Position numbers and translations under genes: made by a program. Of a stretch of DNA of 64,000 nucleotides, positions 51,748-64,000 are shown piece after piece. Source of the DNA: Frigidibacter mobilis (GTDB lineage Bacteria; Pseudomonadota; Alphaproteobacteria; Rhodobacterales; Rhodobacteraceae); assembly GCF_001620265.1 (NCBI RefSeq), contig NZ_CP012661.1:4291001-4355000 (forward strand), written 5' to 3'. The notes beneath the pieces are model-generated. The model had not been told where the DNA came from. It was given only the letters and a program-made list of their open reading frames with translations, and made no database searches. Numbering within the stretch: the first letter of the stretch is position 1; each line of letters opens with the position of its first letter.

Positions 51748-51829
51748 AAAAGAAGCATCAAGTTTCGCGTTCGAGCCGCAGGCGAGAGGCAGCGAAACCA
51801 GATTCATTATTACCGGAACCACCGAATTG

Positions 51830-52828
51830 ATGGAGCAGGCGTCACCAGCCTCCTACCTCGAGCGTTATCTCGACCCGTTCCGCGACCTTCTAAGGCGTGA
51901 CGACGTGGTCGAGATCGCGATCAACCCGGACGGCAAGGTCTGGCTCGAGGTCGCAGGCGACGCCACCATGCGCCACGAAGGTCAGACCGTGGATCGCACC
52001 ACCGCCCTCAACATGGCCCAGACCATCGTCGGCGACGCCAAGGCCCGCGTCTCTGAAAAGAACCCCCTCGTTTCCGGCAAGGTGGAATATGCAGGCCGCC
52101 CCCTCCGTGTCCAGGTCGCCGTCCCGCCCGCCATCGATCGCGGCGCCTCGATCACCATCCGCCTCTTCGCCTCGGGCAGCGTCCGGGACTACGCACCGGC
52201 CTATCTCTTCGGCAAGGCTGTCTCGCTTGATGCGCTCCGCGCCGAGAAGATGAAGAACATCGCTAGTCTCGCTGAAGAGAACCTAGAGGCCGCGCTGCAG
52301 ACCCTGGTCGAGGCGCGGCTCAACGTCCTGATCAGCGGCGGCACCTCGACCGGTAAGACCACTTTTGCCCGCCACCTTCTGACCCACGTCAGCGAGCACG
52401 AACGGCTGATCACCATTGAGGACGCTTTTGAGCTGTTCCCGAGCCAACCCAATACCGTCGCCCTTCTGGCCGACCGCGGTGCCGGTTCACAACGCAGCGC
52501 CAACGCCCTCTTGCAGGCCTCCCTCCGCATGCGACCCGACCGGATCATCGTCGGGGAGCTGCGCGGCGCCGAGGCCCTAACCTATCTCGAAGCCATCAAC
52601 ACCGGCCATGGCGGGTCGGTCTCCACCATCCATGCTGAAACCGCAGAACTCGCCATCGACCGGCTGGCGATCATGGTACTTCAGGCCGGCACACCGCTGA
52701 CATTTGCCGAAGTGCGCGAATACATCCGGAAGTCCATTGATGTGATCTTGCAGCTCGGGCGCGCCGAGGGGAAGCGGGGGATCACGGAGTTTTATCTGCC
52801 TGGGAGCAGAAACCAACCGCCGCCTTGA
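51830..52828 (+). CDS. virB11: VirB11 traffic ATPase
   Basis: A 332-residue hexameric ATPase. Walker A ISGGTSTGKTTF (about residue 168), Asp box ERLITIEDAFEL, Walker B RIIVGELRGAEAL and the His box NTGHGGSVSTIHA are all present. It switches the machine between pilus growth and DNA transfer. ATG 51830 follows an in-frame TTG. Its stop is 65 bp from the convergent stop of the pfkB-like gene. Confidence 0.93.
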   Translation: MEQASPASYLERYLDPFRDLLRRDDVVEIAINPDGKVWLEVAGDATMRHEGQTVDRTTALNMAQTIVGDAKARVSEKNPLVSGKVEYAGRPLRVQVAVPPAIDRGASITIRLFASGSVRDYAPAYLFGKAVSLDALRAEKMKNIASLAEENLEAALQTLVEARLNVLISGGTSTGKTTFARHLLTHVSEHERLITIEDAFELFPSQPNTVALLADRGAGSQRSANALLQASLRMRPDRIIVGELRGAEALTYLEAINTGHGGSVSTIHAETAELAIDRLAIMVLQAGTPLTFAEVREYIRKSIDVILQLGRAEGKRGITEFYLPGSRNQPPP

Positions 52829-52893: not shown

Positions 52894-53954
52894 TTAGCCG
52901 GTTTCGGCATCATTCCCCGTGGAAAACGGAACAATCTTGCATAGCGAACACAGATTCACTCGCGGCTCAGCCTTACCCTCGGTCAATCTTTCAACTGAAG
53001 CTTCCTTGCCAGCCATCAGGTCTGAAACCGCCAACATGAAAGCATCCTTATCGGCTGCTTGCATCGCCCCGCGGGCACCTTCAAATCCGCAGTTTAGGGC
53101 CGCCGCCGCTTGCCCTCGTCGAAGTGCGTCAGAAATTAACCTCGGCGTCCAGGATACGGGTTCAAATTTCCCCGATTGCCAAGTTCACTCAAGAGTAGTG
53201 CGGTACACCAATCACCTGACCCTGCAGCATCAAGAAAATATGGCGCCTCGAATGCATCAAGTTCGAACCAATCCCAGCGAAGGCGAAATTCCAAGCCTCG
53301 CGGCCCTAAGGTTTGGATGATAAGATCTGGCCCAGTGAGATCACGGATTTCGTTGATGTGACCCAGCCTGTCTTCGGCAAACTTTAGGACGTGACAAACA
53401 TCGACGGCCTTTTGGAACTGGCTCTCATCCCCAATCGAAGACGGCTCAAAGAGGACTAGACCTCCACTTTCGCGCACCCAATAGGCTAGCTTCAAGGCGC
53501 TCGGAGACACACGGTCAAAGAAAAAGATATCGGGAACGCAATGACTATCCAATACCGGCTGGATTTGCCGGATAGTCGTTGACCTGAACCTTGGAAGCCA
53601 GCCGCCGCATTCCGGGCAAGTCAACACATAACGATGTGACCTGTGGCCTTCGGCATCTACCTTGAATTTCTGAACGACAACGGGCGTGGAGACCGACTGT
53701 TCCTGCCATACAAAGTCAGTGTTCACGCCGTCGAACTGAAGATCGTGAACAACAAAGTCTCCCGGTTCATCACGTCCAAGCCGCGCCACAGGATACGAAT
53801 CCCAACCCAGCCAGCTCAACAAAGCCATGACATTCCCACACGAACCGCCTGCCGAAGCAAAGGTCGCGTCGAGGCCCTCCACAACATCCATGGCCACGAA
53901 GCCTGTTCCCATGGCCCGCAACTCGATGGCATCCTGCTTCCTGTCGTCGATCAT
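52894..53954 (-). CDS. PfkB/ribokinase-family kinase with two CxxC pairs (one run frameshift)
   Basis: A 353-residue sugar- or nucleoside-kinase-like protein. The N-terminal GGSCGN (36-41) is the substrate-binding glycine motif, and DAAGSGD (242-248) is the anion hole with the catalytic Asp. Adding one C near 53159 joins LGNRGNLNP to VSWTPRLISDALRRGQAA and extends the protein to a stop at 52894. CPEC (113-116) and CSLC (336-339) could bind zinc, an unusual addition to this family. It starts by ATGA overlap with the upstream gene and is the last gene of the cargo operon. The substrate is unknown. Confidence 0.83.
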
Positions 53955-55060
53955 CGTTCCCAGTCCCCGCGAAGCCACATCGATGAGAGCTGGTACTCCG
54001 TACCTGCATCTATGACAGGATCGGAGTAGTCCGCTGTTTCTACATACAAAACGCCCACTGACATGCGATCTCCTGCGATGGCCCCGTACTTGTGATCATA
54101 GCACGCCAACAACGCACCGACCGATAAAAGCTTGGAAGATAGTGGTGACACGAAAGCCTTGCAACCACCAAGCTCGCTCAGCGCCCGCCGATACCGGTCC
54201 ATGGCGGCGAATATCTGCTTGTAAGCTTCGAACGGATTATACTCTGATGCTCTGAGAATGTTGCCTGGTTCGACTTGGAACTCTTCGAACAAGAGTTGCC
54301 GATGTTCCCGAATGATCTCGTCTCCGCGACGTGGTTCTCTCGTCGGGAACGGGATCACCGGGCAAATCTCGTCAGGGTTCAATTTGTCGCGGATGCGTGA
54401 CAGCCTAATTCCTTGCTGTTCGCCGAGCACCGGAAACCATACCCGAGGAACCTGATCGGTCGATTCACTATCAAGCTGCCCGGTGAAGCCGATTACGTTG
54501 GTGACGTCATCACGGAGCGTGCCTCGGGCGGCGCCGATGTCCGCCGACACGCTCTCGGCGGTCGTCACATGGAGATTTACGTCCGGTCCATCCACACTCA
54601 TTTTGTCAAGCTCGTGCAGCAAAGATGCGACAGCCGTAAGCGCCACCATCCTTGGCATTGCGCTGATATCTGCCACGACGTCCGTATACAGGTCCAACGA
54701 ACCCGCGGCACGCAATGCCTGCCGCACGTTTCTAGAAGTGGCGTTGCCCTGTCCGGAGCGTCCGAGTGAGACCTCAATCACGCGAATCTTCGATGCGCCG
54801 ACCAAAGCTTCAAGTTTTTGAACGTTTTCGAGTGTGAGCTGGATTCTTAATTCGCTATCTTGGAAGCCGTTGTCGAAAGCAAGCAGCCAAATATCGACCT
54901 CCCCACCAAAACCCACGATCTTATCTAAAACGGACAGAGCCCTCGGATCATAACCGCGCCCAAGCACAAACAAAAAACGCCTGGAAGGCTCATTTGCGTA
55001 ATTCTTCCAAAAGTTATCAAAATCCTCACCCTGACGGAAGATATAGGGATCCCAACGCAT
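53951..55060 (-). CDS. Conserved-looking Rossmann-like protein of unknown function
   Basis: A 369-residue protein I cannot assign. Alternating strands and helices suggest two Rossmann-like halves: FLFVLGRGYDPRALSVLDK (about 30-50) with a glycine-rich turn, VDIWLLAFDNG, VVADISAMPRMVALTAVASLL (about 137-157), and a C-terminal half with AFVSPLSSKLLSVGALLA (about 320). The polar motifs GYDPR and DISAMPR look like active-site or ligand loops. ATG 55060 is chosen over TTG 55081. It is coupled to the kinase by ATGA, implying joint function. Confidence 0.7.
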   Translation of the reverse strand: MRWDPYIFRQGEDFDNFWKNYANEPSRRFLFVLGRGYDPRALSVLDKIVGFGGEVDIWLLAFDNGFQDSELRIQLTLENVQKLEALVGASKIRVIEVSLGRSGQGNATSRNVRQALRAAGSLDLYTDVVADISAMPRMVALTAVASLLHELDKMSVDGPDVNLHVTTAESVSADIGAARGTLRDDVTNVIGFTGQLDSESTDQVPRVWFPVLGEQQGIRLSRIRDKLNPDEICPVIPFPTREPRRGDEIIREHRQLLFEEFQVEPGNILRASEYNPFEAYKQIFAAMDRYRRALSELGGCKAFVSPLSSKLLSVGALLACYDHKYGAIAGDRMSVGVLYVETADYSDPVIDAGTEYQLSSMWLRGDWER

Positions 55061-55073
55061 GATAGTGACCTCG

Positions 55074-55226
55074 CTAGACAAGCCGCGGCTCCCTGTCCGA
55101 CTGCTCCCCTATGTCGCCGAGCTCCATCCAGCGATGGAGTGTTCCAAGTGATTGTTCACGCCAGCCGCCATATCCAAGCGGCAGGCCAAATTTCACGCAT
55201 AGCAATCTGTTCAAATAGAAAACCAT
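55074..55226 (-). CDS. Small ORF (50 aa) between the ATPase and the Rossmann-like gene
   Basis: An ATG at 55226 inside the end of the ATPase gene opens a 50-codon frame that ends at 55074, just before the next gene: MVFYLNRLLCVKFGLP, then LGYGGWREQSLGTLHRWMEL and a polar tail. It fills an otherwise empty 150-bp gap in a tightly packed operon and overlaps both neighbours, which argues that it is translated. No known domain. It could instead be a coupling leader without function. Confidence 0.45.
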   Translation of the reverse strand: MVFYLNRLLCVKFGLPLGYGGWREQSLGTLHRWMELGDIGEQSDREPRLV

Positions 55227-56976
55227 GTAAGACTTCCCTTCGCCCTCCTATCCAAGTGAGGGGTGATCAAATTATGTGCAACTAGAGACGTGATGACATT
55301 TCGCAATTGGAGAAAATGCTTGATTTTTTTTTCATCTTCACTTGCAAGCGTATTTCGGTCCTGCATTGATATCGCAAACCCCGTAACTCCCGGCATGTAG
55401 GGAGCGGTTGGGCGAAAGGTCTGATCGCGGCAGTATTTACCGAGAGCTTCTAGAAATCTCTTTGCATCGTAGCCTTGGGGCAAGCGCCGCACCAAGCCTT
55501 CCCATCTTAACTCGGCGACTTCACGAATTATCGCGTCCTGTCGTTCCGCTGACAACGAACGCGGAATGCTCCTTGGACCGGTGATCTTTGCAGAAATCTC
55601 TTCGAACAACGCTCCAGCAATCTCAAGATACTGATCGATGTTCGAACTCGCCACGGCGGCTAGCGTGTCTTTTCCAAAGTACAGCGGAGTTTCCATTTCG
55701 GTTCTAAGAAAATGTTCAGCGGCCCTCGAAACGGCTTTTTCCTTTTCATCGAGCTCATCAGCCGGCAGAACGTCAAATGCGAATGATGCCTGGCTCCGCC
55801 TTAGGTCCCGCTCGATCAGGATCTCCGTGGACCGCCATTTTATAGCTGATAAAATCGCATCTCTGCCATCTTCTCGAGCGGCGGTAATCCATTCTTCATA
55901 GCGGCTGTCACCGGCGGTCTTCTCGACAAGTCGCATTTCGATCTCGGATGACTTCTCGCTGTATCTAGTGTCGCCTTCAGCCAGCTCTTCCTCGTTCGCT
56001 ACTAAAGGGAAAAACTCTCGCCTTCAAAACCGTCCGCCTTGGATGCCCTAAGATTGGCAATTTGCTCGGCAAATCGCGTGAAACCAGATGACCGCTTGCC
56101 GGACCACTGTGTTTCAAGCTGGATAACGGATTCGTAATCGCGTTTCTCCAAGGCACCTTCCGTCAACAAGTCTTGGTGGCTCATCGCATCGAGGCGCTCG
56201 GCAATCCAAATACCGCATGGCTCCCTTGCATTGGTTACAAGGTTTATTAGACTTTTGCGCTGCGTATTATCCAAGAATTGAAGTTCGTCGAAAAGGAGAA
56301 TTCGCCGGGACCGAACCTCTCCGCGCCCATCGAACATTCTCGCCCTGGCAAACCACTTGAGACTGTCGAGCCTTGTATGGCCGCCTTGGAGTTCATCTGG
56401 CTCCCCTAGGTCATCCATCGTGTCATAGAAATTGCGTTCGATCTCAGAAGCCCATTCAAACAGCTCTGTTCCGCTCGCGGATGCAGGCACAGTTGCACCA
56501 GACTCTGGTTCCCAAGTGACTCGCAATGTGTTCAGATCATCCGGGTATAGTCGTCCGCTTTGATCAAGGAGTGATCGGAGCGTCGCGATGACAATTCTAG
56601 AATTCAGAAGGGATCTGAATAACCCATTTCCGCGATCGATCTGTGCAAGATCCTGATATTCTGTCGAGAATGAAATCATGGCACCAAGCAAATTGGCTCC
56701 GTTTTCATCCACGGCACCGAGATTATTCAAGACATCGAACGTTGGCTTGACCTGCTGATCTTCCCGCAACGACACAACGAGCTCGAGCGGGCGCGGCAGC
56801 ATCATTCGCAGCAAGGTTGTCTTTCCGCCCCCAGGAGCGCTTCGAAAGAAGACAAGTCCGGAGAACGGATCTTCTTTGTCGTCGACGACATCCAAAGCAC
56901 CAGGCCCGAACAGTCTGACGAACTGTTCATCACTCACCGAACGCTGAGATGCTCTTATGCGGAATGGGTTTCTCAC
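55211..56976 (-). CDS. AAA ATPase, ORC/Cdc6-like (split by one run frameshift)
   Basis: Two frames form one ATPase. The N-terminal part has Walker A SAPGGGKT (46-53) and Walker B RRILLFDELQ (224-233) followed by a sensor-like NARE, and stops at 56002. The next frame begins with no start codon there. Adding one T to a T5 run at 56010-56014 joins EGESFFPLVANEEELAEGDT and gives 588 residues, with a helical C-terminal half. The order and length suggest ORC/Cdc6-like AAA proteins found in bacterial conflict-type operons; this is from memory. The GTG at 56976 lies 2 bp after the upstream stop. Confidence 0.75.
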
Positions 56977-56978
56977 TG

Positions 56979-58022
56979 CTACTCAAACTTTCTATGGCGA
57001 CTGACACGAGGGAATAGACCGCGCACCCTGTGCACATCTTCAGCCCACAAAAGGAAGATGGAGTTGTTGGGTGTATTGTGTGCCAGCACTACCGGCAACT
57101 TACACCCCGCATAGCCGAAACGTTTGGACGTGCCACCAACCTTCGAATGTTCATCGTCTGCATCAGGGTCAAAATAGCGGTCTTGGTCGGCAAGAGACAA
57201 AATTCCATCGTCCGTCGGCGGCACCAGCTTCACGCCGCTGTTGAGGCGATGAACAACCTTGAACTCGATTGATCCCTTCGAAAATGGCAGCTGATCCAAA
57301 CGCTTCTCGATGTGTTCTATCGCCTGATCAGCCGCGATGTAGATCACGACGAGAACAGAAACTCCGGACTGAGCCACAAGACTACCCAAAAGTTCGTCGC
57401 TATCGAGTTCGCGGATAATCTTCGCAATTTTTCCGTCCCAATCTCCGTTCTTTCCCTCTCGAAGGTAGCTGGTCCCACTCGCTGTAAAATCATCCAGCAA
57501 GACTACATACTCGAACTTGGCTTGATCTTCCGGTACTTCCGCGCCAGCGATCGTCGAGAGATCCTTTTGTAATTTTTCCGTAAAGCCTTTAGCTTTTGGC
57601 GAAGACATATCATACGCGTGAAACACTTGCTCATGAGTGATGTCTTGTGGATGCGCTCTTCGAAACTGGTCGGTACGTGCACCGTCGCTCAATCCAAGAA
57701 ATAGCGTCTTTCGTAATCTTGTGCGATACTCTTTGGATTTAACTATCGATTTCACGCGATGAGCTTCCAAAGCTGAATGGCCTTCCGCGGTATCAGCAAT
57801 CAACTTCGGACGAACAAAGGTTGGGAAGGCCAATCCAACAAGACTGTTTATCTCGGCATTTGAAACAAATATTAGCCGTTCCTTGACGAAGGCATAGGCA
57901 ATATCTCGTTCGCCCTTGGTTTCAAATTGCTGCAACCACAACGCTAGACTCTCCAGAAAACGGCGCCCAGGAGCGAACTGCTGATACTCGTCATATTTGT
58001 AGGACGCAAAGCTTTCCAGCAA
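56979..58022 (-). CDS. Phosphoribosyltransferase-like protein
   Basis: A 347-residue protein with a PRPP-loop-like motif VVLLDDFTASGT (173-184), preceded by a hydrophobic strand and two acidic residues as in type I phosphoribosyltransferases. The N-terminal half is helical, and the C-terminal part (LVVIYIAADQAIEHIEKRL, GYAGCKLPVVLAHNTPNNSIFLLW) completes an alpha/beta core. Such proteins transfer or bind ribose-5-phosphate from PRPP; the acceptor is unknown. The open frame starts at TTG 58022, but coding similarity may extend upstream to about 58085, where a further run error would bring a TTG overlapping the HAD stop. Second gene of the operon. Confidence 0.72.
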   Translation of the reverse strand: MLESFASYKYDEYQQFAPGRRFLESLALWLQQFETKGERDIAYAFVKERLIFVSNAEINSLVGLAFPTFVRPKLIADTAEGHSALEAHRVKSIVKSKEYRTRLRKTLFLGLSDGARTDQFRRAHPQDITHEQVFHAYDMSSPKAKGFTEKLQKDLSTIAGAEVPEDQAKFEYVVLLDDFTASGTSYLREGKNGDWDGKIAKIIRELDSDELLGSLVAQSGVSVLVVIYIAADQAIEHIEKRLDQLPFSKGSIEFKVVHRLNSGVKLVPPTDDGILSLADQDRYFDPDADDEHSKVGGTSKRFGYAGCKLPVVLAHNTPNNSIFLLWAEDVHRVRGLFPRVSRHRKFE

Positions 58023-58095
58023 AGCTCTTTCCTCGGCCTTCTCGGCATCGGACCACCCATTATTTTTGTAAGTAGTGTTTCAGCCAGTTCTTTCT

Positions 58096-59104
58096 TCAAT
58101 TTGTCAAACCTCGGTCGGAGGGCTTAATAGCCATAGCCCAAGCCTCTTCAAGTTTTGCAAGGCTCTCAAGGTAGAATACCGTCGCTTGAACACCACGGAT
58201 GCCCGCGGGAGCCAACGCCCAACCTGTTTTCGGATGTCCGCTCGCCCGATCGACACTCAGGCCAAGTGGATGATCCAAGAGCTGAAAGTCGTTCCCCGCT
58301 GGATCGGCGCGGTCACCAATTCGCAAGACCGCGCCACTATCCACTTTTGCCCAGTTGCACAGCTCTTCGACCAGCATAAGTTTGCTTTGCCCCCGATTAG
58401 TACATCCACTGAGTGGCTGGAAGTTACAACTCGGCTATCAAGTCCACCTACTCTCAACGCCTCACGAATTTCTGTAAGCGCCCGAGATACGTCTCGTCTC
58501 CCGGGTACTTTTATTGAAATCTGTTTCGTGTTCGCGCGAATTTCGCAGGAAGACAAAAATGCACCTTTGCGCAACTCTACGAGTATCGGTTCAACCGCAT
58601 CCAATTCTTCTAATAGGGGATCACGATCGTCGCTCAAAGAGCTAATTATTGCGCCATTGTAGTACCCAACAAGTACTTGCCCCAGAGCTCTCGCTTAATA
58701 CTCGACCTTAGAGACACGCCCGCACTTGGGCCCCGACCGTTGCAATACCTATGGGCAGCCCACCTTCAAGGAGCCTGTTCAGTTGTTCGGCTACCTTTGG
58801 CCGAAGGCCAACTTTGAACCGATCGCGGTCATCAGAGAGCGTTCCGTCATAATCCATAACCAAACCCTGAATGGGAGCATCTCTGACAAAATCAATTGCT
58901 CTGGAATAATGCTCTGACCACGTCTCCTTGTCTGCGCCTGAGAGATTAACTCCCTTCCGCGCGAGCGCAGCATTCAGATTCAGCTCCTTCTGAGATCCTG
59001 AAGGCAGCATCGGACCGATCCGATAGAGCCGCCTTCCGAACTCCGGCACACCTGGCTTGGCGGGGTCTATTTCTGAGGCCTCGCCGTGGCCTGCCCCGAT
59101 TGGG
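58096..59104 (-). CDS. SIS-HAD fusion protein, C-terminal HAD phosphatase part (frameshifted, cut from its N-terminus by IS3)
   Basis: After the IS3 junction the protein continues IGAGHGEASEIDPAKPGVPEFGRRLYRI, the end of a sugar-isomerase (SIS) domain, then a HAD phosphatase: motif I VMDYDGTLSDD, a strand GLPIGIATGRG (motif II region), and the final IGDRADPAGNDFQLL. Frames join when one base is added near 58737, 58681 and 58387. Together with 60354-61273 the length is 644 codons exactly in frame. HAD members with this DGT/GDxxDxxGND layout remove phosphate from sugar phosphates. The IS separates it from its start, so it is probably not made now. Confidence 0.78.
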
Positions 59105-59120
59105 TGGTCCGGTCTCAACC

Positions 59121-60158
59121 TTAGTGCATAATAGGTCTTGGCGCTACGACGGGCGTGGCCGGCGAAGCGGTTCCGGGTGGCGAAGCCGGCCACTGCACTG
59201 CCTCTGGCGCCGGGGGTCGATAGCCCAGTGATGAGTGCGGGCGCCTGGTGTTGTAGTGCCGTCGCCAGCTCTCGATGACGATCTTCGCCTCGGCGAGGCT
59301 GTAGAAGATTTCGCCGTTCAAAAGCTCGTCACGGAGTTTGGCGTTGAAGCTCTCGCAATAGCCGTTCTCCCACGGGCTGCCCGGTTCAATGAAGGCGGTC
59401 CTGGCGCCGACAGCGGCGATCCACTCCCGGACCGCCTTCGCCACGAACTCGGGACCGTTGTCAGACCTCACATGGTCAGGCACGCCGCGCAGGATGAACA
59501 GGTCGGACAGGACGTCGATGACATCCGTTGACCGCAATCTGCGATCGATGCGGATCGCCAGGCACTCCCGAGTGAACTCGTCAATCAGGTTAAGCATGCG
59601 GAACTTTCTCCCATCATGGGTCCGGCTTTCGACGAAGTCGTAGGACCAGACGTGGTTTGGACGCTCAGGCCGCAGGCGGATGCAAGACCCGTCGTTCAAC
59701 CATTGCCGTCCCCTCTTCGGCTGTTTCTGCGGGACTTTCAGCCCCTCCCGCCGCCAAATCCGCTCGACCCGTTTGACGTTCACCGCCCATCCGGCCTCCC
59801 GCAGCAGGGCGGTGATCCGCCGGTAGCCGTAGCGGCCGTACTCTGAAGCGAGCGCGATGATGTCCGCGGTCAGTGCGTCTTCATCGGCCCGGCCTCGCGG
59901 CACCTTGCGCTGGGTCGAGCGGTGCTGCCCCAACACGCGGCAGGCGAACCGCTCGGACACGCCGAGCTTCAGCCTGACGTGGTCGATGCAAGCGCGGCGG
60001 CGGGCGGGGCTCAGAAGTTTCCCGAGGCGGCCTCCCGAAGGATCAGCTTCTCGAGCGTCAGATCGGAGACGGCCTTCCGCAGCCGCTCGTTCTCCTTCTC
60101 CAGTTCCTTCAGGCGTTTTACCTGGTCGGTCTTCAGGCCGCCGAACTCCTTCCGCCAC
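59121..60158 (-). CDS. IS3-family transposase OrfB, complete
   Basis: 345 residues with an N-terminal HTH_21-type region (LASEYGRYGYRRITALLREAG), a WNV-KR linker and an rve core: WSYDFVESRT (Asp), RSDNGPEF (Asp) and ENGYCESFNAKLRDE (Glu), ending RRPHSSLGYRPPAPEA. Probably produced as an OrfAB fusion by -1 frameshifting at GGGAAAC (60017-60023, minus strand). Only the part downstream of that site, beginning LLSPARRRAC, is then translated. Confidence 0.93.
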   Translation of the reverse strand: MAEGVRRPEDRPGKTPEGTGEGERAAAEGRLRSDAREADPSGGRLGKLLSPARRRACIDHVRLKLGVSERFACRVLGQHRSTQRKVPRGRADEDALTADIIALASEYGRYGYRRITALLREAGWAVNVKRVERIWRREGLKVPQKQPKRGRQWLNDGSCIRLRPERPNHVWSYDFVESRTHDGRKFRMLNLIDEFTRECLAIRIDRRLRSTDVIDVLSDLFILRGVPDHVRSDNGPEFVAKAVREWIAAVGARTAFIEPGSPWENGYCESFNAKLRDELLNGEIFYSLAEAKIVIESWRRHYNTRRPHSSLGYRPPAPEAVQWPASPPGTASPATPVVAPRPIMH

Positions 60159-60289
60159 CGATAGTAGGTGAACTGCGTCACGCCGATCGAGCGAACCGCC
60201 TCCGCCACCGAGCGGCCTTGCGATACCAACACATCGACCTGCCGGAGCTTCGAAACAATCTCTTCCGGCTTGTGCTTCTTCTGGGGCAT
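60011..60289 (-). CDS. IS3-family transposase OrfA, complete
   Basis: A 92-residue HTH protein identical in layout to copy 1. It starts MPQKKHKPEEIVSKL and ends EAASGNF, two codons after the slippery site. GAGGAGGACGAAGGA upstream gives a strong ribosome-binding site. Confidence 0.93.
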   Translation of the reverse strand: MPQKKHKPEEIVSKLRQVDVLVSQGRSVAEAVRSIGVTQFTYYRWRKEFGGLKTDQVKRLKELEKENERLRKAVSDLTLEKLILREAASGNF

Positions 60290-60353
60290 TCCTTCGTCCT
60301 CCTCTGGCTCAAAAGCCTACTTCAGCGAGGACCACTTTTCAGGGGGCAGACCA

Positions 60354-61273
60354 CTCAGATGCAAACCTGCTACGATTCCCGCAATAGCCTGTAGGTGTCT
60401 GGGTCCGCGAAAATCTATTCTCAGTCGCGGAATTTCTTGCGGTAAGGCCTCAAGGGTCTTGGTTGCGAGCAGCTCCATTCCGTCGCCCACCAAACAGACG
60501 ATACCCGTGGACGCCTTATGTTTATGCATCCAGAAATGTCTTCCGTGCCCAAAATTTCGCAAGTCCGCAGCGTGCAAGTTCCCCAGACCTGCTTCAACGA
60601 AGCGAGACTCAAGATCGACAGACGTTGCTCGTAAAGAGTTCGTGAACAATAGGCTGACGGTCCGATTCAAGCACAGTTCTTTCGCTTGACTGGCTATGTC
60701 CTCCGCGCTCCATCCGAAAACGGTTTGGTGCATGAGTTCCTCAAGCGAAGAAGGCAACTCCTCGCTACCAGGTCCCGACGCTTGGTACGCACGCATAATC
60801 AGGACGGAAGACGCGACCAAAGAAGCGACTGCCAAGAAACCATCTTTGAAGCTGTCGGACTGAAAGTCGACGATATCCGCGTACTGAAACCTTCGACCCA
60901 AAGCGTGAAGTGGGCTTTCATCTCTTAAAACCAGCGCGGAAAGCGGAGAGAACTCTCGTTGAGCTGCGGCCTTGAAAGCCACACCAATATCTCGGTTTCG
61001 ACCACTTGCCGAAAAGCATGCAATACCAGCGTTCGTAGTCGGGCCGGATATGATCTCGAGCGGCGTGACAGCTTTGGCAGTTTCGCCTTCCATCAGTTCA
61101 TGCATCTGAGCCGCGAAGCTAGCCACAGAATAAGATCCTCCGGAGCCAACCATCATCATGGGGCTCTCTCGCCAACCGTCCACGACGCGACAGAGTTCGG
61201 AGATATCCGCCTTAATGGCTGACTGATATGCCTTCTCGGCGCTGCGTAGTTCCGTTCGGTATCTCTCAGACAC
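60354..61273 (-). CDS. SIS-HAD fusion protein, N-terminal SIS (sugar isomerase) part, interrupted by IS3
   Basis: The first 306 residues of the operon's first gene. A SIS fold is shown by VGSGGSYSVASFAAQ (42-56), the sugar-phosphate-binding Ser loop, CFSASGRNRDIGVAFKAA (about 80-97) and a second half with VSLLFTNSLRATSVDLESRF. SIS domains isomerise or bind phosphosugars, as in GlmS. The reading runs into IS3 at 60353; across the IS it would continue LHLS-PIGAGHGEAS. The start is GTG 61273 with AAAAAAGGCAGG upstream. Its position makes it the operon leader, so the IS is probably polar on the downstream genes. Confidence 0.8.
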
Positions 61274-61534: not shown

Positions 61535-62956
61535 TCATCCACCCAACAACTCCTCGATAAAGTCCTCCTGCCGGTCGAGCGCCGCCTCCCATTCCTTCGG
61601 CACAGCCGCTTCCCGCTCGAGCGTCTCTGGCTCAGGTTGCCCGCGCCCGCCCTCGAGCGCCATCACGCTCATCGCCCGCGCTTCACGGCGTTGCGATCGA
61701 TCCCGGACTGGCGCGCGTTCGGCCGGTTTTGCCAGCTCGTCTGCACCGGCCTCATCACTATCCACGCCACCCCAGGGCCCCACGCCCTGTACGCTCGGCG
61801 GATAGGGAAAGGGCTTACCCTCCTGTCGGGCCAGCATCTCCTTGAAGAACGGATCGTCGTAATATTTGATCCGGCTCGCCTTGATCGGGTGTTGGGGCGA
61901 GGCGAGGATGATGACCTCGTCGGGGTCCATAAGGCGCGCTTCGGTCTCGGAAAGCAGCGGCCGCTCTTCCAGCCGCGCTGATGTCGAAGTTGCGCCAAGG
62001 AAGCCTTTGTTGCGACCATACATCCGGGTCACCGCCTCACGGGTGGTGCTGCCGACGGCGGCAGAAACCTCTTTTACCGTCCGCTGGTCCCGCGGGGTGA
62101 TGTAGAGCTTGAGCCCTGCCCCGTTCTCGAGACTTTCGCGGCCTTCGGGCCCGTAGATCCTGTCGAGTGAAGCCAGCGACTGCGCAATCATCGCGACGCG
62201 GCCGCCATAGCTTGCCAGCGAGTGGATCGCGCGCTCGAGATAGGGCATCGCCCCCATCTGCTGGAATTCGTCGATCATCATCATGACCGGCCAGGGTTCA
62301 TCCGGGCCAGGCTCATTCAGTCGGATCGAGGCGATGAGATCGGCGAACATCAAGCGCAAGAGCGGCGCCAGAGTGGCGATGTGATCCTCGGAGACGGCGA
62401 TATAGAGCGACTGCGGGGACTTGCGGAAGGTCGAGAAATCAAAGTCGCTGTCTTGCGTGGCCGAGCGCACCGCCGGGTTGTCCCATTGCTTGAGACCGGC
62501 GGTCATCAACGCTTGGATGTTCGAGGTCAGGAGCCGCGACGAGGCTGAGGCCGCGTTGGTCCAAAGCTCGCGCAGAATGTCTTCTTCGGCCTCGTCGGCA
62601 TAGGTCTTGTATTGTGCGTTCTTGTACTCGCCCCGGCGACGATCTGGTTCACTGCGCCAAGGTTCGGCGTGCCGCGCTGGATCGCCAGCAGACAGGCCGC
62701 AACAAAGATCGACTTGCCGGCCTCGGAGAATGTGTCGAGGGTCTTGTTGTCCTTGTCGAGGAAGAGGTCGGCCAGGATCGAGACCTCGGTGAATCGCTGT
62801 GCGAAGCTCGGGGCCTTCGCGATCCGGGCGAGCGGGTTGTAACGATGCGTGGCATTGGCCCAGTCGAAGGGGCTGAAGCGATAGACCTCGTCGCCGTTCA
62901 GCGCCCTGAGCCGGGCGGTCTTCTCGAAGTTCTCGCCTTTCACGTCGAGCACCACG
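61535..62956 (-). pseudogene. virD4: VirD4/TraG coupling protein, C-terminal part, truncated by IS3
   Basis: About 474 residues of the type IV coupling protein, which brings DNA to the channel. Visible are VLDVKGENFEKTA, the Walker-B-like VMMMIDEFQQMGAM, LASYGGRVAMIAQSLASLDRIYG and ITPRDQRTVKEVSAAVG. The N-terminal membrane anchor and Walker A lie beyond the IS3 that begins at 62957. One further break near 62632 is repaired by adding one G, giving NQIVAGGEYKNAQYK. It points opposite to the virB operon. Confidence 0.88.
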
Positions 62957-63020
62957 TGGTCTGCCCCCTGAAAAGTGGTCCTCGCTGAAGTAGGCTTTTG
63001 AGCCAGAGGAGGACGAAGGA

Positions 63021-63299
63021 ATGCCCCAGAAGAAGCACAAGCCGGAAGAGATTGTTTCGAAGCTCCGGCAGGTCGATGTGTTGGTATCGCAAGGCCGCTC
63101 GGTGGCGGAGGCGGTTCGCTCGATCGGCGTGACGCAGTTCACCTACTATCGGTGGCGGAAGGAGTTCGGCGGCCTGAAGACCGACCAGGTAAAACGCCTG
63201 AAGGAACTGGAGAAGGAGAACGAGCGGCTGCGGAAGGCCGTCTCCGATCTGACGCTCGAGAAGCTGATCCTTCGGGAGGCCGCCTCGGGAAACTTCTGA
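63021..63299 (+). CDS. IS3-family transposase OrfA, copy 3
   Basis: An intact 92-residue OrfA with the same sequence features as in copies 1 and 2. The slippery GGGAAAC is at 63287-63293, before its stop. Confidence 0.92.
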   Translation: MPQKKHKPEEIVSKLRQVDVLVSQGRSVAEAVRSIGVTQFTYYRWRKEFGGLKTDQVKRLKELEKENERLRKAVSDLTLEKLILREAASGNF

Positions 63300-64000
63300 G
63301 CCCCGCCCGCCGCCGCGCTTGCATCGACCACGTCAGGCTGAAGCTCGGCGTGTCCGAGCGGTTCGCCTGCCGCGTGTTGGGGCAGCACCGCTCGACCCAG
63401 CGCAAGGTGCCGCGAGGCCGGGCCGATGAAGACGCACTGACCGCGGACATCATCGCGCTCGCTTCAGAGTACGGCCGCTACGGCTACCGGCGGATCACCG
63501 CCCTGCTGCGGGAGGCCGGATGGGCGGTGAACGTCAAACGGGTCGAGCGGATTTGGCGGCGGGAGGGCTGAAAGTCCCGCAGAAACAGCCGAAGAGGGAC
63601 GGCAATGGTTGAACGACGGGTCTTGCATCCGCCTGCGGCCTGAGCGTCCAAACCACGTCTGGTCCTACGACTTCGTCGAAAGCCGGACCATGATGGGAGA
63701 AAGTTCCGCATGCTTAACCTGATTGACGAGTTCACTCGGGAGTGCCTGGCGATCCGCATCGATCGCAGATTGCGGTCAACGGATGTCATCGACGTCCTGT
63801 CCGACCTGTTCATCCTGCGCGGCGTGCCTGACCATGTGAGGTCTGACAACGGTCCCGAGTTCGTGGCGAAGGCGGTCCGGGAGTGGATCGCCGCTGTCGG
63901 CGCCAGGACCGCCTTCATTGAACCGGGCAGCCCGTGGGAGAACGGCTATTGCGAGAGCTTCAACGCCAAACTCCGTGACGAGCTTTTGAACGGCGAAATC
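63152..64000 (+). pseudogene. IS3-family transposase OrfB, copy 3 (frameshifted, partial)
   Basis: Begins like the complete OrfB of copy 2 but the frame stops at 63571 because a G run is one base short. Two more short runs (near 63598 and 63688) shift it again, after which RSDNGPEF- and ENGYCESF-coding sequence follows. It is cut by the window end. Either a decayed copy or sequencing undercalls. Confidence 0.85.

Follow-up and report, generated by a model that had tools for sequence, protein, structure and literature searches.

A five-gene block between virB11 and virD4

The window, a 64,000-nucleotide stretch of the Frigidibacter mobilis genome, contains a minus-strand gene block between virB11 (51827–52828, plus strand), a 97% single-frame match to virB11 of a Sulfitobacter alexandrii plasmid, and the remains of virD4 (61535–62955, minus strand), found by tblastn as residues 165–276 and 273–637 in two frames. 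An earlier note had counted six packed frames here; the block and its place were right, but judged by sequence comparison it consists of five genes, encoding a SIS-HAD fusion, a PRTase, an ORC/Cdc6-like AAA+ ATPase, a CARF6 protein and a PfkB-family kinase. G+C content is 0.50–0.55 across the PfkB-to-PRTase part (about 53–59 kb), against 0.64–0.66 on the virB side and 0.60–0.63 on the virD4 side.

From the virD4 side, the first gene encodes the SIS-HAD fusion (58099–61273, minus strand), delimited by profile pieces and by tblastn with the intact protein of another locus (L002). It is broken by an insertion (59101–60352, ends approximate, minus strand; ORFs 60011–60289 and 59121–60158) that occupies the gap between the two SIS-HAD matches, and that we assign to the IS3 family from a reading of its ORFs. 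The SIS part (60317–61273, minus strand) lies upstream of the interruption, and the HAD part lies in pieces between 58099 and 59100 (minus strand; ORFs 58708–59193, 58257–58637 and 58096–58377). Residues 1–288 of the L002 protein match at 61216–60353 (95%), and residues 287–621 at 59100–58099 (66%), in one alignment crossing out-of-frame stretches; four separate profile pieces were also seen at the same site. The first IS3 ORF has five 100% identical copies on contig C1 of the assembly, including the window's own, and a further 76% copy on contig C3.

The PRTase-CE gene follows (56979–58067, minus strand; longest ORF 56979–58022), with a broken start region and a 97% match to residues 12–373 of the intact L002 protein. 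The ATPase gene (55077–56976, minus strand) matches in three frames by tblastn, corresponding to ORFs 56002–56976, 55211–55936 and 55074–55226. The CARF6 gene (53951–55081, minus strand) is intact, the match to its homologue beginning at 55060. The kinase gene (52900–53978, minus strand) is made up of ORF 53136–53978 and a tail at 52894–53064; it is broken near the C-terminus and matches the intact L002 kinase in two frames.

The intact operon copy on the S. alexandrii plasmid served as the reference for decay. Relative to this copy, SIS-HAD is in several pieces and cut by the IS3, PRTase is broken at its start and PfkB at its end, and the ATPase gene is spread over three frames. The virD4 gene is truncated, its N-terminal part being gone next to where another IS3 copy lies in inverted orientation (from 63021 on), and it carries one frame break. 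In contrast, CARF6 and each of 12 compared virB-side genes gave single-frame matches. By this comparison the window copy is decayed, and not intact as sequenced; that most genes of the locus are broken had been missed in the earlier note. Because the 12 virB-side genes are in single frames, while breaks affect four of the five operon genes as well as virD4, real decay is likelier than assembly error alone.

Protein families

The PfkB, ORC/Cdc6-like and PRTase families named in the earlier note were confirmed by Pfam matches in the window. The kinase matches PF00294 (1.4e-6), and the PRTase matches PF24390 (1.7e-21, 77.7 bits versus a cut-off of 27) as well as the PADLOC profile PRTase_III-A (9e-14), a label that we take to mean retron type III-A. 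The two larger pieces of the ATPase gene match PF24389 (5e-10 and 5e-11; 39.2 and 42.4 bits, cut-off 27), and the intact ATPase of locus L052 reaches 77.4 bits. ORF 55211–55936, which had been taken for a separate small gene, covers positions 385–511 of PF24389, and the ORF preceding it covers positions 42–306; both are therefore pieces of one ORC-like gene. Similarly, ORF 58257–58637 belongs to the HAD part of SIS-HAD. Walker B was found in 70 of 76 ORC proteins, and a widened pattern gave the same count for Walker A (6 of 76 with the strict one); against the PDB, the ATPase profile gave weak P-loop matches only. The PRTase-CE and ORC-CDC6-like families reportedly come from Nicastro et al. 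2023, and PRTase-CE is said to degrade nucleotides as an immune effector.

For the SIS-HAD fusion, the window sequence itself gives a weak HAD match below cut-off (TIGR01484, 0.009). Among intact relatives, HAD (PF08282) passes in all four SIS-HAD proteins scanned; SIS (PF01380) passes in one (L095), is weak in another (L052) and absent in two (L019, L035); the SIS identity comes also from PDB profile matches (8eol, 3hba, 2e-5). The closest PDB kin are fructokinases for PfkB (5ey7, 1.6e-19), glucosamine-6-phosphate deaminase and phosphosugar isomerases for SIS, and Cof-like phosphatases for HAD, and HAD and PfkB keep their catalytic motifs.

The fifth protein had been called Rossmann-like. This agrees with its fold but misses its identity, since it matches the PADLOC CARF6 profile at 5.3e-129; all four distant copies scanned match too, at 1e-92 to 5e-118. 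PDB sequence searches with the CARF6 and PRTase profiles yielded nothing useful, and only the folds were informative. For CARF6, Foldseek alone ranked CARF proteins below the regulatory domains of transporters and other Rossmann proteins, and it returned nothing at E <= 0.001 for the PRTase model; realignment was therefore needed. After realignment, the 376-residue CARF6 model shows the CARF Rossmann fold, with two CARF-like halves and no further domain, and the model of the intact L019 PRTase shows the type I PRTase fold with its PRPP loop. A loose CARF lysine pattern was present in 34 and then in 47 of 72 unaligned proteins, for which an alignment column is the better count. The CARF6 family reportedly goes back to a 2020 census of CARF proteins.

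The best-known role of CARF proteins is to read cyclic oligoadenylates produced by the Cas10 complex. Eleven of 31 genomes scored above the Cas10 family cut-off, as did the E. coli control, so that weak matches are unsafe. At E <= 1e-10, there is no Cas10 match in 25 of 30 carrier genomes (drafts may be incomplete). Of the five strong matches, one lies about 13 kb from the operon (genome G311), three are in draft genomes on contigs other than the operon's, and the last is more than 2 Mb away. Since 25 of the 30 carriers have no strong match, the CARF ligand would usually not be made by Cas10. None of 50,697 phage records matched CARF6, and it occurred on only four IMG/VR contigs.

Distribution, neighbours and co-variation

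The earlier note had named confinement of the gene order to this contig as a finding that would refute its idea; the 97 loci collected rule that out. All four of SIS-HAD, PRTase, ORC and CARF6 are present in 88 of the 97 loci, and the remaining nine are close to the end of a contig or stretch. The 68 complete loci all have, in addition, PfkB (39), NADAR (17) or both (12). Within the window's phylum, SIS-HAD and CARF6 were found in the same six of 398 genomes, and the five-gene set recurs across many phyla of bacteria and archaea. By the 97 loci and the 398-genome survey, the gene set is more than a chance association. The PRTase-CE family is wider than the operon: among 289 genomes of the window's class it is over cut-off in nine, two of which (the window's own and L106) have operon neighbours within the short stretch around the gene.

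Across the 51 five-gene loci, tight co-variation links PRTase, ORC and CARF6, and likewise SIS-HAD and PfkB; it is weaker between the two groups. For PRTase and SIS-HAD it is 0.59 on these common loci, a value preferred to 0.82 over 82 loci, where the loci differed from pair to pair. One plasmid (L003, L005) carries a single sugar-phosphate pair and two diverged PRTase-ORC-CARF triads.

Eleven neighbour families recur in four or more of the 97 loci: HTH, transposase, a 78-aa ORF, RHE_PE00001, virB11, an antisense shadow ORF, an unnamed 429-aa family, a GajA/OLD-type ATPase, a relaxase-like, a type I restriction-like and a distant RND-like family. Apart from those taken from annotation and profile scans, these names are our own reading. 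Integrases and methylases are nominally enriched near the operon. PADLOC had no match for five of nine large neighbour proteins picked by eye, and no model matching the SIS-HAD, ORC and PfkB proteins scanned. Of nine small upstream ORFs, five have no Pfam match and the rest are mixed.

The kinships of SIS, HAD and PfkB, with HAD and PfkB motifs kept, are what a metabolic module would show, in which PfkB would phosphorylate a ketose or nucleoside, SIS isomerise or deglycate, HAD dephosphorylate and PRTase use PRPP under regulation by CARF and ORC, so as to feed on or detoxify an unusual ribosyl or fructosyl compound. We consider this quite unlikely. The 11 families include no transporter-like one close to the operon, such as a fructoselysine-like sugar-utilisation operon would have, the RND-like family being distant, although clustering at E 1e-8 could miss diverse transporters; CARF and a retron-type PRTase are unusual for catabolism, and presence in so few genomes is typical of cargo.

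In the S. alexandrii plasmid, and at loci of Mameliella and Roseobacter, the operon also sits between virD4 and virB11, and 8 of 18 CARF6 plasmid records are predicted conjugative. Both observations would suit a role in stabilisation or exclusion by plasmids or ICEs, in which a toxic PRTase is held in check by NADAR or by SIS-HAD/PfkB, so that the element is kept or a rival excluded. NADARs are antitoxins in DarT operons, according to an excerpt of PMC11125620, and a small HTH-type ORF adjoins NADAR in 10 loci (with a weak HTH_26 match in L027). This role is nevertheless unlikely: NADAR is missing from 39 of the 68 complete loci, five genes with a CARF sensor and an AAA+ switch exceed the usual toxin-antitoxin pair, 9 of the 18 plasmid records are non-mobilizable by prediction, and in other phyla many of the carriers are contigs of chromosomal size.

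The SEHAYQ pattern of NADAR is present in 19 of 31 proteins (20 of 31 even after widening), and NADAR distances track neither PRTase (0.18) nor SIS-HAD (0.07), both values being below the largest of 300 permutations. Repeated exclusion between NADAR and PfkB was considered and rejected: PfkB absence is a single change on the tree (63 rows with known state), so that NADAR-for-PfkB substitution rests on one event, and 12 of the 68 complete loci hold both. On the tree, NADAR switches between present and absent at least six times. Such changes would fit RNA or nucleotide repair or salvage, with ribose phosphates recovered from damaged nucleotides and CARF as nucleotide sensor, as would the hydrolysis of ribosyl N-glycosides by NADARs and their links to RNA repair and to disposal of riboflavin intermediates (excerpt of PMC9503650). 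Given the patchy distribution in the 398-genome survey and the lack of a recognisable ligase or RNA-end enzyme among the 11 families, repair or salvage is very unlikely.

A candidate conflict module

Several known systems share parts with the operon. Its PRTase and ATPase exceed the curated cut-offs of Pfam families PF24390 and PF24389, and its CARF protein matches the PADLOC CARF6 family by profile (5e-129) and fold; the label "undescribed operon" is too broad as worded, these families being held in Pfam and PADLOC. No paper was recognised as describing the gene set, in a search that covered subscription journals thinly. In the excerpts available, PRTase is the effector of type III retrons (PMC12548924), PRTase and NADAR domains are among defence candidates (PMC13092281), and Nicastro et al. 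2023 is cited in a sentence on NTP-depleting effectors (PMC12839542); the excerpt of PMC4012209 has no mention of PRTase, phosphoribosyl or SIS. Type III retrons combine a reverse transcriptase, a PRTase and a DNA-binding protein, and the operon PRTase likewise matches PRTase_III-A, but the operon adds the ATPase, CARF and sugar-phosphate enzymes. A reverse transcriptase was absent from the annotated features of 13 plasmid stretches, a count that rests on an incomplete gene table and leaves out 80 genome loci. The DprA-PRTase pair, which protects against T7 and lambda, also joins a PRTase to a DNA-binding partner, as predicted for the operon ATPase; it has DprA in place of ORC/Cdc6, and no CARF is named in the excerpt (PMC9122126), where the mode of action of PRTase effectors was called unknown in 2022. 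The CARF-HAD (Chp) effectors of type III-A CRISPR, whose immune response lowers ATP and IMP (excerpt of PMC12715507), bring a CARF and a HAD phosphatase together, as both families are in the operon. There, however, CARF and HAD form one fused protein and the Cas10 complex supplies the messenger, whereas in the operon HAD is fused to SIS, in a protein separate from CARF.

The locus is probably one copy, now decayed, of a widespread mobile conflict module that most likely acts against phages or plasmids and has two co-evolving parts. In the first, three proteins would form one machine: the type I PRTase would be its nucleotide-targeting effector, the ORC/Cdc6-like AAA+ ATPase its DNA-engaging switch, and the stand-alone two-domain CARF protein its sensor of a nucleotide ligand. 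The second would be the ribose- or sugar-phosphate pair SIS-HAD and PfkB, which the ribosyl N-glycosidase NADAR joins or, in one clade, replaces. The ATPase may detect, or load on, invading replicating DNA and license the PRTase, which would break or make base-ribose-5-phosphate bonds and so starve or poison replication. CARF6 would set the threshold by binding a nucleotide product, and SIS-HAD with PfkB or NADAR would process the phosphoribosyl product and reset the system. We infer the defence role, the trigger, the PRTase as harmful part and the ligand, as well as reset rather than signal-making as the direction of the sugar-phosphate arm. The earlier idea of a ribose-phosphate or nucleotide conflict module under an ATPase fits and is partly supported: PRTase, CARF and ORC/Cdc6 families are known from defence systems, and the set is patchy, occurs on plasmids and lies near integrases and methylases.

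Counting against a conflict module, the chemistry of SIS-HAD and PfkB is typical of sugar metabolism (fructokinase and glucosamine-6-phosphate deaminase kin). Also counted against it are the scarcity of CARF6 in phages, the PADLOC-negative neighbours, the lack of PADLOC models for the SIS-HAD, ORC and PfkB proteins scanned, the wider PRTase-CE family, the single PfkB loss behind the NADAR-for-PfkB substitution and the incomplete NADAR motif (20 of 31).

Another arrangement, less likely, is self-contained CARF signalling with no cyclic-oligonucleotide synthetase, where PRTase and SIS-HAD/PfkB (or NADAR) would make and erase a new phosphoribosyl-type messenger that the two-domain CARF protein reads to gate the ATPase. 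One sugar-phosphate pair lying with two triads, as on the L003/L005 plasmid, is as expected of a diffusible metabolite.

Across many phyla, a CARF protein is locked together with a PRTase, a replication-type ATPase and enzymes of sugar-phosphate chemistry, and the genomes concerned mostly have no strong Cas10 match. Either the range of CARF ligands is wider than cyclic oligoadenylate, or there is a hidden synthetase. The module would put ribose-phosphate chemistry in bacterial immunity, and would help to explain PRTase effectors.

Gene content and state of the window's copy

Between virB11 and the virD4 remnant, five minus-strand genes were found, encoding a SIS-HAD fusion, a PRTase (PRTase-CE), an ORC/Cdc6-like ATPase (ORC), CARF6 and a PfkB kinase. 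The earlier note had counted six, but its small ORF (55211–55936) encodes the ATPase C-terminal half: the two ATPase ORFs cover positions 42–306 and 385–511 of one and the same Pfam model. Its "Rossmann-like" protein is more exactly CARF6 (PADLOC profile match, 5e-129). The G+C content at 53 to 59 kb is 0.50–0.55, with 0.64–0.66 on the virB side and 0.60–0.63 on the virD4 side.

The reference for intactness was an unbroken copy (L002) on a Sulfitobacter alexandrii conjugative plasmid of 349 kb. Relative to it, the window's SIS-HAD is in several pieces, split by an IS3 element, the PRTase is broken at its start, PfkB is broken at its end, the ATPase is distributed over three frames, and CARF6 is intact. 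On the virB side, all 12 genes compared with the L002 region give single-frame matches. The virD4 gene is truncated and adjoins a second, inverted IS3 copy; the IS3 ORF is present in five identical copies on its contig (C1). A tblastn search (E 1e-5) with 21 S. alexandrii region proteins, including the relaxase, found none of them in the 20 kb starting at the window's end (G000:C1:4354000–4373999, L140), the virD4 side lying at 61535–64000 of the window. Given the truncated virD4 and this result, the window's conjugation region is probably incapable of self-transmission. Unbroken operon copies occupy the same virD4-virB11 site in S. alexandrii, in a Mameliella sp. (L019) and in a Roseobacter MAG (L020), the last having virB11 itself split into two frames.

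Conservation and distribution

Ninety-seven loci were annotated with custom-made profiles: 13 plasmid stretches (from 18 plasmid records with CARF6), four IMG/VR contigs, and 80 loci from genomes, taken as the best 80 among 228 relatives of the PRTase and so close PRTase kin by choice. SIS-HAD, PRTase, ORC and CARF6 occurred together in 88 of them, fragments counted (e.g. L013, L054, L097), and the nine remaining loci all lie no more than 2.5 kb from the end of their contig or stretch. Among the 68 loci truncated on neither side, 39 carried PfkB alone, 17 NADAR alone, 12 both and none neither. Among plasmid records, 17 of the 18 with CARF6 also belong to the 19 with PRTase.

In a survey of 398 genomes evenly drawn from the window's phylum, taken to be Pseudomonadota, using profiles built from the operon proteins, CARF6 was found in six, the window's own included, and SIS-HAD in the identical six at identical places. 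PRTase was present in five of these, the sixth copy being on a short contig; the ATPase lay within 1.5 kb of CARF6 in five copies, and SIS-HAD accompanies the sixth. Within this draw, a single genome from the window's genus and 19 from its family were without the operon. Tree labels include fifteen phyla besides Pseudomonadota, archaeal MAGs among them, with binning errors possible for MAGs. The PRTase-CE family is wider than the operon: nine genomes among 289 of the class were above its cut-off, and two of these (the window's own and L106) had operon neighbours within the short stretch covered.

The operon had been called undescribed. No description of the set as a whole was found in the open-access literature, a body that leaves out the likeliest sources; the component families are already named in Pfam and PADLOC. 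PADLOC models cover none of the scanned SIS-HAD, ORC and PfkB proteins.

Co-variation of the operon proteins

Pairwise distances were compared over the same 51 loci, all with five full-length proteins, excluding L003 and L005, which carry duplicated triads. Correlations were 0.92–0.97 among PRTase, ORC and CARF6 and 0.93 for SIS-HAD with PfkB, but only 0.54–0.61 across these groups; 300 permutations gave at most 0.16. Judged from these distances, the operon is made of two co-evolving parts, PRTase-ORC-CARF6 and SIS-HAD-PfkB. NADAR distances showed no matching correlation with PRTase (0.18) or SIS-HAD (0.07), both under the largest permutation, and NADAR was therefore recruited separately. On a quickly built PRTase tree (88 rows, 63 with a known state, support values not from bootstrap), PfkB absence corresponds to one change and NADAR presence to at least six.

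Two plasmids (L003, 8932–19586; L005, 951–13128) each carry two diverged PRTase-ORC-CARF6 triads but, within the stretch covered, just one SIS-HAD and one PfkB. This arrangement points to a substrate or product that is diffusible and shared.

A small HTH-type ORF adjoins NADAR in ten loci (L004, L005, L011, L013, L024–L027, L030, L032); the label is annotated in three plasmids, and L027 gives a weak HTH_26 match. In the PfkB-less clade, six loci have a separate 78-aa ORF, without Pfam match, ahead of NADAR.

Links to conflict systems and proposed mechanism

Family relationships and neighbours suggest that the operon is a conflict module. In PADLOC, the PRTase matches the profile PRTase_III-A, a label that we take to mean retron type III-A, and the L052 NADAR matches the candidate PDC-M42C (1e-8). 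According to the cited papers, type III retrons use PRTases as effectors (PMC12548924), a DprA-PRTase pair confers protection against T7 and lambda (PMC9122126), BREX includes ORC-Cdc6 ATPases (PMC12839542), type III-A CRISPR immunity includes a single protein in which a HAD phosphatase and a CARF both act (PMC12715507), and NADARs, which take off ribosyl groups, serve as antitoxins (PMC9503650, PMC11125620).

Neighbours within 25 kb were counted in 30 carrier genomes, the distance and families being chosen by the analyst and P values nominal. Integrases numbered at least 10, in 8 genomes, among the matches listed, versus 2.5 expected (P = 0.0003; by genome, 0.0016), and PfkB paralogues, the control, 2 among the matches listed, both in one genome, versus 2.3 expected; since both expectations derive from all matches, the comparison is conservative for integrases and blunted for the control. 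N6 methylases numbered 4, versus 0.56 expected (P = 0.003). A hand-picked sample of nine large neighbour proteins included two type I restriction enzymes, one GajA and one candidate PDC-S28, the other five being without PADLOC match. The Gabija GajA and the PDC-S28 candidate, at L046 1699–4038 (−) and L083 15607–18912 (−), lie near operon copies. Two plasmids also carry a nucleoside 2-deoxyribosyltransferase gene close to the operon (L004, 3290–4165; L007, 16950–17510).

CARF effectors of type III CRISPR respond to messengers of the Cas10 complex, as PMC12715507 states. Cas10 was detected at E ≤ 1e-10 in five of the 30 carriers; weaker matches are unsafe, because the E. coli control matches too. 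One genome of the 30 (G311) has a strong Cas10 match about 13 kb from the operon PRTase (contig C171, about 5.9–30.6 kb). Three integrases also lie near the operon and Cas10 on this contig. For the other 25 carriers, either the ligand has a different source, or CARF6 has another role, or Cas10 is missing from the drafts.

We infer that the PRTase would be the effector, that the ATPase and CARF6 would gate it, and that SIS-HAD plus PfkB or NADAR would form an arm processing the phosphoribosyl product. For this sugar-phosphate arm, we lean slightly towards a role in resetting the system over one in making its signal.
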